This document shows positions 3,288 to 15,782 of a stretch of 38,347 nt of DNA, one piece after another. Numbering within the stretch: position 1 is the first letter of the stretch; every line of letters begins with the position of its first letter. The notes beneath the pieces were generated by a model that saw only the letters and a program-made list of their open reading frames with translations, was not told the origin of the DNA and did not search any database. The stretch comes from Candidatus Eiseniibacteriota bacterium (GTDB taxonomy: Bacteria > Eisenbacteria > RBG-16-71-46 > SZUA-252): positions 1 to 38,347 of the forward strand of contig VBOR01000024.1 in assembly GCA_005893165.1 (NCBI GenBank), read 5' to 3'. The position numbers were made by a program, and so were the translations under genes.

Positions 3288-4330
3288 GCAAAGGGGTTCA
3301 GCAACGCGCGGCGCCGGGTGGGGCCCCGTACACTCCGATCCAGGGCAAGAAGAAGCCGCGCATCCTGAGCGGCATGCGTCCGACGGGGAAGCTCCACCTC
3401 GGAAACTATCTCGGGGCGCTCCAGAACTGGGTCGTTTTACAAGATAGCAGCGAGAACCTCCACATGGTCGCCGACTGGCACGCCCTCACCACCGACTACG
3501 AGCACGTGGAAGAGATCGCGCCGAAGACCACGGACATGGTGATCGATTGGCTCGCGGCGGGGATCGATCCGGAGAAGAGTCCCGTGTTCATCCAATCGCA
3601 CGTGAAGGAGCACGCGGAGCTGCACCTCCTCTTCTCGATGCTGGTGACCACGAGCCGCCTGGAGCGGAATCCGACGGTCAAGGAGCAGGTCCGCGACCTT
3701 CACCTCGAAGACTCGGTGAGCTACGGACACCTCGGCTATCCCGTGCTTCAAGCCGCGGACATCCTCCTCTACAAGGCGAATCTCGTCCCTGTGGGCGAGG
3801 ACCAGGTGCCTCACGTCGAGATCACCCGCGAGCTGGCGCGGAAGTTCAACCACCTCTACGGCGAGGTGTTTCCGGTTCCCGAGGTGAGGCTCACCAAGTT
3901 CCCGCGCGTCCCGGGGCTGGACGGACGGCGCATGAGCAAGTCGCTGGACAACGCGATCTATCTTTCGGATTCTCCGGAGGTGATCGCCGCGAAGGTGATG
4001 ACCGCCTACACCGACCCCAAGAAGCTCCGGGCCAACGACCCGGGGAATCCGGACGGGTGCGTGGTCTTCGCCTACCATCGCGCCTTCAACGGCGAGAACG
4101 CGGAGCAGATCGGCGCGGACTGCAGGGCGGGGCGCCTCGGATGCGTCGTGAACAAGAGGAATCTCGCCGCGATCCTGGCCGAGCAGCTCCGCCCCTTTCG
4201 AGAGCGGCGCCGGGAGCTGGAGGCGCATCCCGAGCGCGTGCGCGAGGCGCTTCGGATGGGGGAGGAACGGGCGAGGAAGATCGCCCAGGAGACGATGCGG
4301 GAGGTGCGCGAGGCCATGAAGCTTCCATGA
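3284..4330 (+). CDS. trpS: Tryptophanyl-tRNA synthetase
   Basis: Charges tRNA-Trp with tryptophan in the cytoplasm. The class I signatures are present: GKLHLGNYLGAL near residue 37 (the HIGH-type motif) and RRMSKSLDNAI (the KMSKS motif). Other TrpRS blocks are ADWHALTTDY, YPVLQAADILLY and PVGEDQVPHVEITRELARKFN. The length of 348 residues is slightly above the usual 330-340 because of an N-terminal tail of about 25 residues. I chose TTG 3284, which overlaps the TGA of the M50 gene and has GGGGGAG 6 bases upstream; the next ATG would remove the HLGN region. The frame is open further upstream into the M50 gene, but that part has no TrpRS similarity. It overlaps scpA by ATGA. Confidence 0.96.
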   Translation: MSKGVQQRAAPGGAPYTPIQGKKKPRILSGMRPTGKLHLGNYLGALQNWVVLQDSSENLHMVADWHALTTDYEHVEEIAPKTTDMVIDWLAAGIDPEKSPVFIQSHVKEHAELHLLFSMLVTTSRLERNPTVKEQVRDLHLEDSVSYGHLGYPVLQAADILLYKANLVPVGEDQVPHVEITRELARKFNHLYGEVFPVPEVRLTKFPRVPGLDGRRMSKSLDNAIYLSDSPEVIAAKVMTAYTDPKKLRANDPGNPDGCVVFAYHRAFNGENAEQIGADCRAGRLGCVVNKRNLAAILAEQLRPFRERRRELEAHPERVREALRMGEERARKIAQETMREVREAMKLP

Positions 4331-5139
4331 AGGAGACCCCGGGACCCCTCACGGGGCCGGCACTCGCCGAGGACGGCGAATCGCGCGGGGCGAGCCTGAT
4401 CCGCGTCGCCGTGCCCGCCTTCACGGGTCCGCTCGATCTTCTGCTTCACCTGATCCAGCGGGACGAGATCGAGATCACCGATATCCCGATCGCCCGGATC
4501 ACCCGCGAGTACCTGAATACGCTGGAGCTGATGCGCGAGCTCGATCTGGATGTGGCGGGGGAGTTCCTCGTCATGGCCGCGACGCTCATGCGCATCAAGG
4601 TCCGGATGCTCTTGCCTCCGGCGATCACGGACGAGGAGGAGGAGGATCCGCGCGAAGGTCTCGTGCGGCAGCTCCTCGAGTACCGGCGGTTCAAGGAGGC
4701 CGCCCGCGAGTTCGAGTCCCTGGAGTCGGACCGGCGCCTTCTCTTCGACCGCGGCGCGCCCGCGCAGCTCGAGGACCATGAAGGCGAGCTCCAGCCCGTG
4801 AGTCTCTTCCGTCTTCTGGACGCCCTGAAGAACATCCTCCAGCGGCAGGTCCCTCCGATCGTGCACACGATCACGGCCGAGCCGATCAGTCTGGAGGAAG
4901 CCATCGCCGTGATCCGGGGACAGCTGGAACGAGGCAAGCGCGCGCTCTTCGAGGAGGTGCTCGCCGGTTTCGTCTCGCGCCTGGAGAAGATCACCGCGTT
5001 CCTGGGGCTCCTCGAGCTCCTGAAGCAGGAGCGGATCACCGTGTCTCAAGAAGAGCTGTTTGGACCGATCTGGATCGCGTGGCGTGAGGCAAGCGCGCGG
5101 CGGCCGGTCGATTCCGGGGAGGAGGAGCCACATGCCTAG
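4327..5139 (+). CDS. scpA: Segregation and condensation protein A
   Basis: ScpA is the kleisin that bridges the two SMC heads and, with ScpB, forms the bacterial condensin that compacts and segregates chromosomes. The 270-residue protein shows the ScpA start block FTGPLDLLLHLIQRDEIEI (about residues 33-51) followed by DIPIARITREYL, the long middle helix region VAGEFLVMAATLMRIKVRMLLP, an acidic linker (EEEEDP), and a C-terminal winged-helix part with AFLGLLELLKQERITVSQEELFGPI. The ATG at 4327 overlaps the trpS stop as ATGA, implying translational coupling. The end overlaps scpB by 8 bases. The N-terminal 25 residues before the conserved block are unconserved and Pro/Gly-rich. Confidence 0.95.
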   Translation: MKETPGPLTGPALAEDGESRGASLIRVAVPAFTGPLDLLLHLIQRDEIEITDIPIARITREYLNTLELMRELDLDVAGEFLVMAATLMRIKVRMLLPPAITDEEEEDPREGLVRQLLEYRRFKEAAREFESLESDRRLLFDRGAPAQLEDHEGELQPVSLFRLLDALKNILQRQVPPIVHTITAEPISLEEAIAVIRGQLERGKRALFEEVLAGFVSRLEKITAFLGLLELLKQERITVSQEELFGPIWIAWREASARRPVDSGEEEPHA

Positions 5140-5794
5140 CGATAAACAGATCCTCGAGGCCGTGCTCTTCGCGAGCGACGTCCCCGTGACGCTGAACGTG
5201 CTCACGCAGGTGCTGGGGAACCGGAGCCCCGCCGAGGTGCGGGCCCTCCTGAGCGAGATGGCCGCCGCCTACGAGAGCGAGGAGCGCGGGGTCGTGTTGT
5301 CGGAGATCGCGGGAGGGTTCCAGATCCTCTCGCGGAAGGAATGTTCCGCCTGGGTCGAGCAGATGCTCCGGTCGCGCCGCAAGATCCGGCTCAGCAAGCC
5401 CGCGCTGGAGACGCTCGCGATCGTGGCGTACAAGCAGCCGATCACGAAGGTGGAGATCGACTCGATCCGCGGGGTGGATTCGGCGGGCGTGCTCCACACG
5501 CTCCTCGAGCGCAACCTGGTCACGATCAAGGGACGGTCGAAGGGAGTGGGCCGGCCGCTCCTCTATTCCACCACCCAGGAATTCCTCTCCTACATGGGAA
5601 TCAACGAGCTCACGGATCTGCCGGAGCTGAAGGAGCTGGCTCCGCTCCTGGACGAGCGCGAGCGCCTGCCGGAGGGAGAGCGGCCAGAGGAGAGTTCGCC
5701 GGCCGGGAAGGACGCCTCAGGCGGCGACCCGGCGGAGGCGCGCGAGACGGAACCGGAAGAGGTCGAGGTCTCGACCGCGGACGGTGCGGCTTAA
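5132..5794 (+). CDS. scpB: Segregation and condensation protein B
   Basis: ScpB is the dimeric winged-helix partner of ScpA in the SMC condensin. The hallmark blocks are ILEAVLFASDVPVT near the N-terminus, and KPALETLAIVAYKQPITKVE with IDSIRGVDSAGVLHTLLERNLV in the centre, then GRPLLYSTTQEFLSYMGI. The protein is 220 residues; the last 50 are an acidic, low-complexity tail. A GTG 72 bases upstream is also in frame, but ATG 5132 has GGAGGAG (5121-5127) at good spacing and begins with the conserved helix, so it is preferred. It overlaps scpA by 8 bases and the following pseudouridine synthase by 11. Confidence 0.95.
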   Translation: MPSDKQILEAVLFASDVPVTLNVLTQVLGNRSPAEVRALLSEMAAAYESEERGVVLSEIAGGFQILSRKECSAWVEQMLRSRRKIRLSKPALETLAIVAYKQPITKVEIDSIRGVDSAGVLHTLLERNLVTIKGRSKGVGRPLLYSTTQEFLSYMGINELTDLPELKELAPLLDERERLPEGERPEESSPAGKDASGGDPAEARETEPEEVEVSTADGAA

Positions 5795-12063: not shown

Positions 12064-13944
<1,881 letters not shown>

Positions 13945-13951
13945 AGGTGAG

Positions 13952-15730
13952 ATGAAGCAGGCGGTCGCGACATCGCCCGAGGGGTCTTCCAGGGCCCCTC
14001 GGGTTTCTTTTTGCACTCTGGGCTGCCGGCTGAACCAGTACGACACGTCGGCTCTTCGCGCGCGGCTTCTGTCCCAGGGAATGGTCGAGGCGCGGGCGGA
14101 GGAGGGAGCCGCGGACGTGGTCCTCGTGAACACGTGCACGGTGACGGGCCGCGCCGATCAGGAAGCAAGGCAGCTCATCCGGAAGCTCCACCGCGAATCG
14201 CCCGGAGCCAGAATCGTGGTCACGGGATGCTACGCGCAGCGGGCGCCGGAAGAGGTGCGGGCGATTCCCGGAGTCACGGCGGTCCTCGGCACCGCGGATC
14301 GCGACGATCCGGACAGGCTGATGCGCGCGGTCGGCTGGAACGGCCGGGCCGCGGCGGGCACGGGATCGCCCGCGGGTGAAGGCGTGGGCGCACCCTTCCT
14401 CGGGGTCGGGCCGGCCCGCGCCCCCCGCGACTTCACGACCCAGGCTCCCCTCCACGTGGGCCGGTCGCGCGCGCTCCTCAAGATCCAGGACGGCTGCGAC
14501 TCCTTCTGCTCGTACTGCATCGTGCCCTACGTGCGGGGGCGGAGCCGGAGCCTTGCGCGCGCGGAGGTGCTCGAACGTGCGCGGCGGCTTCTCGAGACCG
14601 GGTTCACGGAGATCGTGCTCACGGGCGCGGACCTGGGGAGCTACGGCAAGGATCTCGGGGAGCGGGAAGCTCTGGCGCGGCTCGCGGTGGCGCTGCTCTC
14701 GCTCGGGCCGGACCACCGCGTGCGCCTCTCCTCCATCGAGCCGAACAAGCTGGGGCCGCGGATCGTCGAGATGATCGGAGCCGAGCCGCGTCTCTGCCGG
14801 CACCTCCATCTGCCGCTCCAGAGCGGGTCGAACCGGGTCCTGGGCGCGATGCGGCGAGGCTACACCCGCGAGGAGTACGCCGCGATCCTCGACCGCGTCG
14901 TGGCTCGAGGGCCGGTCGGCATCGGGGCCGACGTGATCGTGGGATTTCCAGGGGAGGGGGAGGAGGAGTTCGCCGAAACCCTCCAATTCCTGTGGGATCA
15001 GCCGGTCACCTTCCTCCACGTGTTCCGCTATTCGCCGAGGCCGGGAACCCGGGCGGCCCGCCTGGAAGCGGGCGAGCCCGCCGCCACAGTCCGGGAGCGT
15101 GCCGAATCGCTCCGGAAGCTGGGCGAGGAGAAGCTCCGGGCGTTCCGGAGGTCGCTCCTGGGATCGACCCTGCCCGTGGTCATGGAGCAAGGGCGGGGCG
15201 CCGATGGGCCCGTGTCGATGAGCGACCTCTACCTGCCGGTCGAGCTCGACCGGGAGCCCCCGAACCGGCGCGGGATCCTGCACGTGACGATCTCGGGGGA
15301 GGACGGTGCGCGTCTCCTCGGCAGACTCGACCCCCGAACTTGCGATCCTGAAAACGGTTCCAAGCTCCGGACGAGCGATGGGTTGACCCTCGCCGGGCCT
15401 CTGGATATTCTGCCGACCGCATCCAGGTCCGACCGCAACCAGGGAGGGGACTGTCATGTGGATTCTCAAGAATCTGGCCTGGCTCCTGATCATGGTCGCG
15501 GTCGTGGGGTTCGGTTACCTGAACCTGAACGGCCTCGCGACGGAGATCCGGATCCCGGGAGCGGTATACTCCAACGTCCCGCTCCCGATCGCGCTCTTCG
15601 CCGCCTTCGCGCTGGGGATGCTCCTCGCCTTCCTCCTCACCCTGGTGAACTACCTGAAAGGCCTCGCGACCATGGGGCGGCTCTCCCGGGAGAACCAGAG
15701 CCTGAAGCAGGAGCTGCGGTCCCTTCGTAA
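13952..15730 (+). CDS. mtaB: tRNA t6A37 methylthiotransferase MtaB, with overlapping C-terminal extension
   Basis: MtaB adds a methylthio group to t6A37 of tRNAs reading ANN codons. The N-terminal cluster domain has FCTLGCRLNQYD (Cys25), NTCTVT and TGCYAQRAPEE; the radical SAM cysteines are Cys182, Cys186 and Cys189 in GCDSFCSYC. GRSRSLARAEVL and HLPLQSGSNRVLGAMRRGY follow, then a short TRAM-like end near residue 456. Homologues usually stop near 430-460 residues, but this frame stays open to 15730 (592 residues). The last 135 residues look like out-of-frame translation of the spacer and of lapA, with which they overlap by 275 bases. Either the stop was lost, a small frameshift exists, or the tail is real. 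ATG 13952 follows rpsA by 7 bases. Confidence 0.88.
   Translation: MKQAVATSPEGSSRAPRVSFCTLGCRLNQYDTSALRARLLSQGMVEARAEEGAADVVLVNTCTVTGRADQEARQLIRKLHRESPGARIVVTGCYAQRAPEEVRAIPGVTAVLGTADRDDPDRLMRAVGWNGRAAAGTGSPAGEGVGAPFLGVGPARAPRDFTTQAPLHVGRSRALLKIQDGCDSFCSYCIVPYVRGRSRSLARAEVLERARRLLETGFTEIVLTGADLGSYGKDLGEREALARLAVALLSLGPDHRVRLSSIEPNKLGPRIVEMIGAEPRLCRHLHLPLQSGSNRVLGAMRRGYTREEYAAILDRVVARGPVGIGADVIVGFPGEGEEEFAETLQFLWDQPVTFLHVFRYSPRPGTRAARLEAGEPAATVRERAESLRKLGEEKLRAFRRSLLGSTLPVVMEQGRGADGPVSMSDLYLPVELDREPPNRRGILHVTISGEDGARLLGRLDPRTCDPENGSKLRTSDGLTLAGPLDILPTASRSDRNQGGDCHVDSQESGLAPDHGRGRGVRLPEPERPRDGDPDPGSGILQRPAPDRALRRLRAGDAPRLPPHPGELPERPRDHGAALPGEPEPEAGAAVPS
13976..14012 (+). terminator. Terminator-like hairpin inside the 5' end of mtaB
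   Basis: CCCGAGGGG (13976-13984) and CCCCTCGGG (13995-14003) form a perfect 9-bp GC-rich stem with a 10-base loop, followed at once by TTTCTTTTT (14004-14012). This is a textbook intrinsic terminator 32 bases past the rpsA stop. It lies within codons 9-21 of mtaB; the T-tract encodes the V-S-F of the conserved RVSFCTLGC block. It could end most rpsA transcripts while allowing some read-through into mtaB. Confidence 0.75.
15383..15411 (+). promoter_or_regulatory. Promoter of the lapA-lapB-mutS operon
   Basis: TTGACC (15383-15388), 17 bases, TATTCT (15406-15411). The predicted start is near 15418, giving a 5' leader of about 38 bases with GGGAGGGGA before the lapA ATG. It lies inside the unexpected C-terminal extension of mtaB, which supports the view that mtaB normally ends upstream. 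Confidence 0.6.
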
Positions 15731-15782
15731 CCTCCCGCTCGAGGATCTGAGGATCGGGGAGCGCGAGGGAAGCGAGGCGTGA
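15456..15782 (+). CDS. lapA: LapA-domain membrane protein (lipopolysaccharide assembly)
   Basis: The 108-residue protein has two membrane helices (about residues 5-24 and 42-66) joined by a short loop with the IRIPGAVYSNVPLPIALF pattern of the LapA domain (DUF1049), then a cytoplasmic coiled-coil tail (SRENQSLKQELRSLRN). In E. coli LapA works with LapB to balance LPS synthesis through FtsH and LpxC. The ATG at 15456 has a strong GGGAGGGGA site and its own promoter. The end overlaps lapB as GTGA. The first 275 bases overlap the extended mtaB frame; its clear domain and signals make lapA the real gene there. Confidence 0.88.
   Translation: MWILKNLAWLLIMVAVVGFGYLNLNGLATEIRIPGAVYSNVPLPIALFAAFALGMLLAFLLTLVNYLKGLATMGRLSRENQSLKQELRSLRNLPLEDLRIGEREGSEA

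Follow-up and report, generated by a model that had tools for sequence, protein, structure and literature searches.

In the window, by which we mean the whole 38,347-nucleotide stretch of DNA analysed here, a hairpin and T-tract that follow the ribosomal protein gene rpsA are embedded in the opening codons of the gene downstream, mtaB. Sequence comparison makes it probable that this element is a partial intrinsic terminator of rpsA overprinted by the N-terminal extension of MtaB, such that mtaB would be made from read-through transcripts only. On the evidence of related sequences the element is genuine and conserved and has a function as RNA.

The upstream gene, rpsA (12064–13944, forward strand), encodes 30S ribosomal protein S1; its product matches NCBIfam NF004952 with 775.8 bits (cut-off 524) and contains S1 domains identified by Pfam. 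Its stop codon, TAG, has its last base at 13944, and 7 nt separate it from the ATG start codon (13952–13954) of mtaB, the junction occupying 13945–13954 on the forward strand. The mtaB reading frame (13952–15730, forward strand) encodes a tRNA t6A37 methylthiotransferase, and the identity of MtaB is solid (TIGR01579, 392.8 bits versus a cut-off of 357.05). The conserved part of the gene ends near 15328, with homology stopping near residue 459; from 15329 the frame remains open to 15730 and overlaps a gene encoding a LapA domain (15456–15782). In close relatives the mtaB frame closes near the conserved C-terminus (in genomes G002 and G003 it is open over 448 aa), and the frame running open in the window reflects either a lost stop codon or an assembly error. 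A σ70-like promoter, TTGACC-17-TATTCT (15383–15411, forward strand), lies ahead of this LapA-domain gene, is also present in genomes G001, G005 and G007, and bounds the far end of the mtaB unit. As this conserved promoter sits beyond mtaB, mtaB alone likely relies on read-through from rpsA, barring an unseen promoter within rpsA.

The hairpin and T-tract together span 13976–14012, beginning 31 nt after the rpsA stop. The 5′ arm of the stem (13976–13986, forward strand) and the 3′ arm (13993–14003, forward strand) form nine perfect pairs, CCCGAGGGG (13976–13984) with CCCCTCGGG (13995–14003), plus a T-G and a C-G; counted inward, the extension adds two G-U and one G-C, giving 12 pairs, and the consensus scan, which adds a flanking pair, reports 13. 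The 3′ arm encodes Ala-Pro-Arg and the first base of Val18. Directly behind the stem lies the T-tract TTTCTTTTT (14004–14012, forward strand), which has T at eight of its nine positions and encodes part of Val-Ser-Phe-Cys; its codons GTT, TCT and TTT are rare, representing 6.9%, 3.8% and 9.7% of the codons for their respective amino acids in a wider sample of the genome. The 9-bp perfect stem and T-tract described in an earlier, sequence-only reading are thus confirmed, the first stem base being the 32nd after the rpsA stop, and that reading correctly placed the element across mtaB codons 9–21. The segment 13965–14014 folds with −27.9 kcal/mol, which is 4.3 standard deviations below dinucleotide shuffles (−15.9±2.8 kcal/mol; 0 of 200 equally low), and the stem is the longest among eight terminator-like sites in the 10–18 kb interval (shuffle mean 3.3 sites). 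The site therefore has the stable G+C-rich hairpin of an intrinsic (Rho-independent) terminator, and the U-tract that should accompany it contains 6–8 T in nine positions across the seven genomes of the family that have mtaB.

Near the hairpin, every in-frame ATG, GTG or TTG codon precedes the stem, at 16 and 70 codons ahead of Arg17, and the hairpin is thus truly within the mtaB reading frame. Were the start placed past the hairpin, the protein would lack either the Val-Ser-Phe-Cys-Thr strand or else the first Cys in the TLGC motif, which we take to be an iron-sulphur ligand. Start codons were compared across 111 mtaB-like loci, of which seven are from the family and 104 are others (a few sharing a genome), ten duplicate family loci having been excluded. 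A start codon lies within eight codons of the conserved block at 83 of the 104 non-family loci but at none of the seven in the family, whose members also have no in-frame start codon between the hairpin and TLGC. MtaB in this family therefore has an N-terminal extension (residues 1–17; 13952–14002, forward strand, in the window) that holds the predicted terminator. The element was found inside the start of mtaB in all seven family members and at none of the 104 other loci, three of which carry a terminator-like hairpin in the usual place, upstream of the mtaB start. It is also lacking from the mtaB start of seven class-level or more distant relatives (G009, G012, G013, G016, G019, G047 and G055) in which rpsA adjoins or is near mtaB, which suggests that it is specific to one family. 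A 10-bp hairpin at the equivalent site in G012 (L011), which belongs to another family, was not counted, as no T-tract follows it.

Relatives were drawn from a set of 59 genomes; rpsA-like proteins were found in all of them and mtaB-like proteins in 57 of them, many of the latter matches being paralogues such as MiaB. The window's family is represented by nine genomes (G000, the window's own, to G008), and an rpsA orthologue is present in eight of these, none being found in the G008 assembly. In seven of the eight mtaB directly follows rpsA, and each of these mtaB genes carries the stem-loop at identical codons, with a T-rich tail behind it; the length of the stem-loop is constant at 28 nt. 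The eighth genome, G006, has no mtaB orthologue, yet the hairpin is present there too. What remains after rpsA is a relic reading frame of 29 codons with a TTG start, LIRIDADEPEGRYEAPRVFVLSTGCYPGT, which retains the extension, 10 of 11 stem pairs and TTTTCGTTTT before entering the region of the LapA-domain gene. That the hairpin and T-tract outlive mtaB indicates that the element serves rpsA. Departures from the ideal form occur: the G001 stem has one mismatch, C, G or A breaks up the tails in the family, and in G005 no more than 6 T occupy the nine positions. Such interrupted tails suggest that termination may be partial. As a separate observation, the deletion of mtaB in G006 (L116) seems to have altered the −35 region of the LapA-domain gene promoter as well.

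Selection on the stem was assessed in an alignment of the eight family elements (an 11-pair stem, 88 cells) against 500 shuffles. Standard pairing occurs in 96.6% of the cells, and four stem pairs show changes on both sides, amounting to 11 cells. No shuffle matched the observed pairing, the number of double-change cells or the covariation score, and sliding the stem register abolishes the pairing signal; the remaining two of the five measures, the count of doubly changed pairs and that of further pair types, were unexceptional (79 and 171 of 500 shuffles as high, respectively). Pair 60–79 is A-U in four genomes and G-C in four, while pair 63–76 occurs as A-U, G-C, C-G or G-U. On an rpsA tree A-U at 60–79 is found in G006 and in the group of G000, G002 and G003 and is absent from G001, a split distribution indicating that the pair changed at least twice (by parsimony, judged by eye). 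Changes in the 5′ arm are at second codon positions and alter the amino acid (Glu/Gly and Gly/Glu/Ala), and the 3′ arm compensates at third positions within a conserved Ala-Pro-Arg, which reads Thr-Pro-Arg in G003. The stem is therefore kept in relatives through compensatory synonymous changes, the pattern by which the sequence-only reading had proposed that its idea be judged.

A complementary test kept the protein sequence constant and drew codons from G000 usage, 20,000 versions being generated for each of the seven genomes with the G000 table applied to all relatives. The observed stability was reached in 0 to 0.32% of synonymous versions (p≤0.0032 in each of the seven), and between 0.005 and 4.6% attained the T count (p from 0.00005 to 0.046, seven of seven). 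Stability and T count were reached jointly by none of the 20,000 versions in six genomes, including that of the window, and by one in G004. Stem conservation, compensatory changes and the codon test together strongly support the earlier proposal that the same bases are used as terminator and as protein code.

The element was also placed in the context of the genome. A strict scan of 1.60 Mb, on both strands, returned 53 terminator-like sites compared with 14 in one shuffled control; 21 of the sites lie within 120 nt past a called stop, mostly 24–34 nt past it. At 31 nt the rpsA element shares this gene-end location and the genome's usual spacing, and it would therefore be an ordinary gene-end terminator in an ordinary position; the unusual feature is that a gene is written across it. 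The rough gene caller missed mtaB, so the element in the window was classed as ‘after stop' rather than ‘inside gene', and other terminators within reading frames may be overlooked likewise. A looser scan was dropped as evidence, as it returned 83 sites versus 82 in the control.

In the same 1.60 Mb two other strict sites lie no further than 120 nt into a called gene. A 14-bp hairpin with a partial T-tail (L194, contig C37 of G000, 4114–4150) is located 53 nt past the stop of a PorV-family gene, in signal-peptide-like codons of a GTG-start reading frame of 1120 aa, which has a weak sorting-domain match, below the cut-off. A hairpin occurs at this place in all nine family genomes, with significant stability in each (p≤0.003; synonymous codons, 3,000 draws per genome), and the T-richness of the tail is significant (p≤0.025) in seven of the nine, the exceptions being G004 and G007. 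In G008 no start codon precedes the hairpin in the stretch examined. The weaker tail and the less variable stem sequence make termination at L194 less certain than at rpsA; nevertheless, a second conserved hairpin within a reading frame suggests that the trick may recur. More tentatively, and with rather more doubt than conviction on our part, the rpsA–mtaB case and that of the PorV-like gene and secreted protein could reflect a habit in this family, whereby the terminator of one gene is encoded by the opening codons of its downstream neighbour, with N-terminal peptides dictated by an RNA terminator and not by protein function. A further candidate, L197 (contig C41 of G000, 5151–5178), was rejected as a second in-gene case: the ferredoxin-like domain of the DAHP synthase begins at residue 23, and the true start of the reading frame is thus probably downstream of the hairpin. 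The L197 region (5053–5186), in which a short reading frame, MRVSVNEFRYGWTWQRGPERRPG, precedes a terminator-like hairpin just before the DAHP synthase gene, has the appearance of an attenuator responding to aromatic amino acids.

In the mechanism we favour, the terminator is encoded by the MtaB N-terminal extension together with the first conserved β-strand codons (Val-Ser-Phe). Most polymerases leaving rpsA would probably stop at about 14010–14013, yielding ample S1 mRNA, and the read-through fraction would be the sole mRNA for full MtaB, as no start codon lies past the hairpin. Both termination and its efficiency are predictions from sequence features, and it is reasonable to infer that the terminator sets the ratio of S1 to MtaB, as first proposed from the sequence. 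Ribosome-binding sites, scored with an anti-Shine-Dalgarno sequence, are weaker at mtaB than at ≥83% of 1153 called G000 genes in six of the seven family genomes; the window's own site is of ordinary strength (−7.1 kcal/mol, exceeding that of 65% of genes). Two of the seven start codons are GTG or TTG. If a ribosome began mtaB on a terminated mRNA, it would exhaust the message after some 20 codons without meeting a stop codon, and across the family such mRNAs would carry 18–28 mtaB codons and no stop. The cost of these non-stop messages, which would require tmRNA rescue, may explain the weak mtaB starts, and strong mtaB initiation has likely been selected against; a tmRNA scored over the cut-off in seven of the nine family genomes. 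In an E. coli system the non-stop message from a terminator within a reading frame gave lower expression (PMC4824070). The same report describes termination as maximal once over 27 nt separate the hairpin from the preceding stop codon (PMC4824070), and these E. coli measurements agree with the geometry seen here. The corresponding distances in G000–G005 and G007 are 31, 55, 27, 27, 23, 31 and 31 nt, so that the stem is 55 nt from the stop in G001 and, at 23 nt in G004, falls under the distance for full efficiency in E. coli. A ribosome ending rpsA would halt short of the stem and should therefore not block the hairpin.

It is conceivable that the element is instead a regulated attenuator, in which ribosomes re-initiating on mtaB behind the polymerase melt the hairpin, and mtaB transcription thereby reports translation or S1 status. 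The mtaB start is 5–7 nt past the rpsA stop in all seven genomes, as in termination-reinitiation, the stem lies just 24 nt beyond the first base of the start codon, where any elongating ribosome has to open it, and the L197 terminator of the same genome resembles a classical leader-peptide attenuator. However, a non-systematic inspection of the folds of relatives revealed no conserved alternative (antiterminator) helix, and the frame through the hairpin is the N-terminus of the enzyme itself rather than a separate leader peptide with control codons. The weak ribosome-binding sites in six of the seven genomes, and the retention of the hairpin without the enzyme in G006, also argue against such regulation. 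Furthermore, E. coli terminators that lie no more than 100 bp into a coding region are described as efficient because the ribosome cannot catch the polymerase, and a first ribosome is not expected to have closed the gap at this distance (PMC4824070). We consider regulated attenuation unlikely; relief of the hairpin by ribosomes translating mtaB, as suggested by the sequence-only reading, is the less likely main effect and, judging from the E. coli measurements, would probably be minor.

Alternatively, the stem might merely stabilize the 3′ end of a processed rpsA mRNA or slow early mtaB ribosomes. Coding-region hairpins are generally capable of both roles, and termination here rests on prediction, but neither role would require the T bias seen in the T-tract codons of all seven genomes, and in G006 no enzyme is left to brake, making this explanation very improbable. 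Chance complementarity of Pro-Gly and Ala-Pro-Arg codons in a GC-rich genome is scarcely credible, since, although Pro, Arg and Gly codons favour pairing and synonymous versions already average about −8 to −12 kcal/mol, the observed family hairpins reach −20.5 to −26.3 kcal/mol, show compensatory third-position changes and have no counterpart inside the start of the 104 non-family mtaB loci.

An intrinsic terminator of rpsA overprinted by mtaB would provide a natural, evolution-tested DNA that serves as terminator and protein code, in which compensatory changes show which role drives which codon. Its natural variants, including the genome that has lost the enzyme, offer a means to probe the ratio of an abundant ribosomal protein to a scarce enzyme in one operon, and bear on the tolerance of the non-stop mRNAs that termination would create. 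For annotators the element is relevant to the choice of start codons near terminators. A limited search of the open-licence literature found neither a naturally occurring terminator that sits in the opening codons of the following gene and is kept by compensatory changes nor the rpsA–mtaB locus, which we do not claim to be unpublished.

The rpsA–mtaB element resembles T1 of the E. coli macromolecular synthesis operon, located between rpsU and dnaG, which is described as a conserved intrinsic terminator after a ribosomal-protein gene whose read-through feeds downstream genes needed in smaller amounts (PMC7863352). T1 is, however, described as lying between genes (PMC7863352), whereas the predicted rpsA terminator is inside the downstream reading frame, the start codon being upstream of the stem in all seven family mtaB genes. 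A tR2 terminator that was engineered 30 bp into an E. coli reading frame is reported to work efficiently in this position, within the first 100 bp, and to generate non-stop mRNA (PMC4824070); that construct is artificial, while the rpsA–mtaB element occurs naturally throughout the family and has been shaped by compensatory changes in its codons. Term-seq in E. coli identified 3′ termini within reading frames and at their 5′ ends, where premature termination in genes is partly intrinsic (for example aceK int), and such termini are interpreted as the product of premature termination or processing within the gene that contains them (PMC7815308). In contrast to those termini, the rpsA–mtaB element would end the upstream gene, and it outlives the downstream one.
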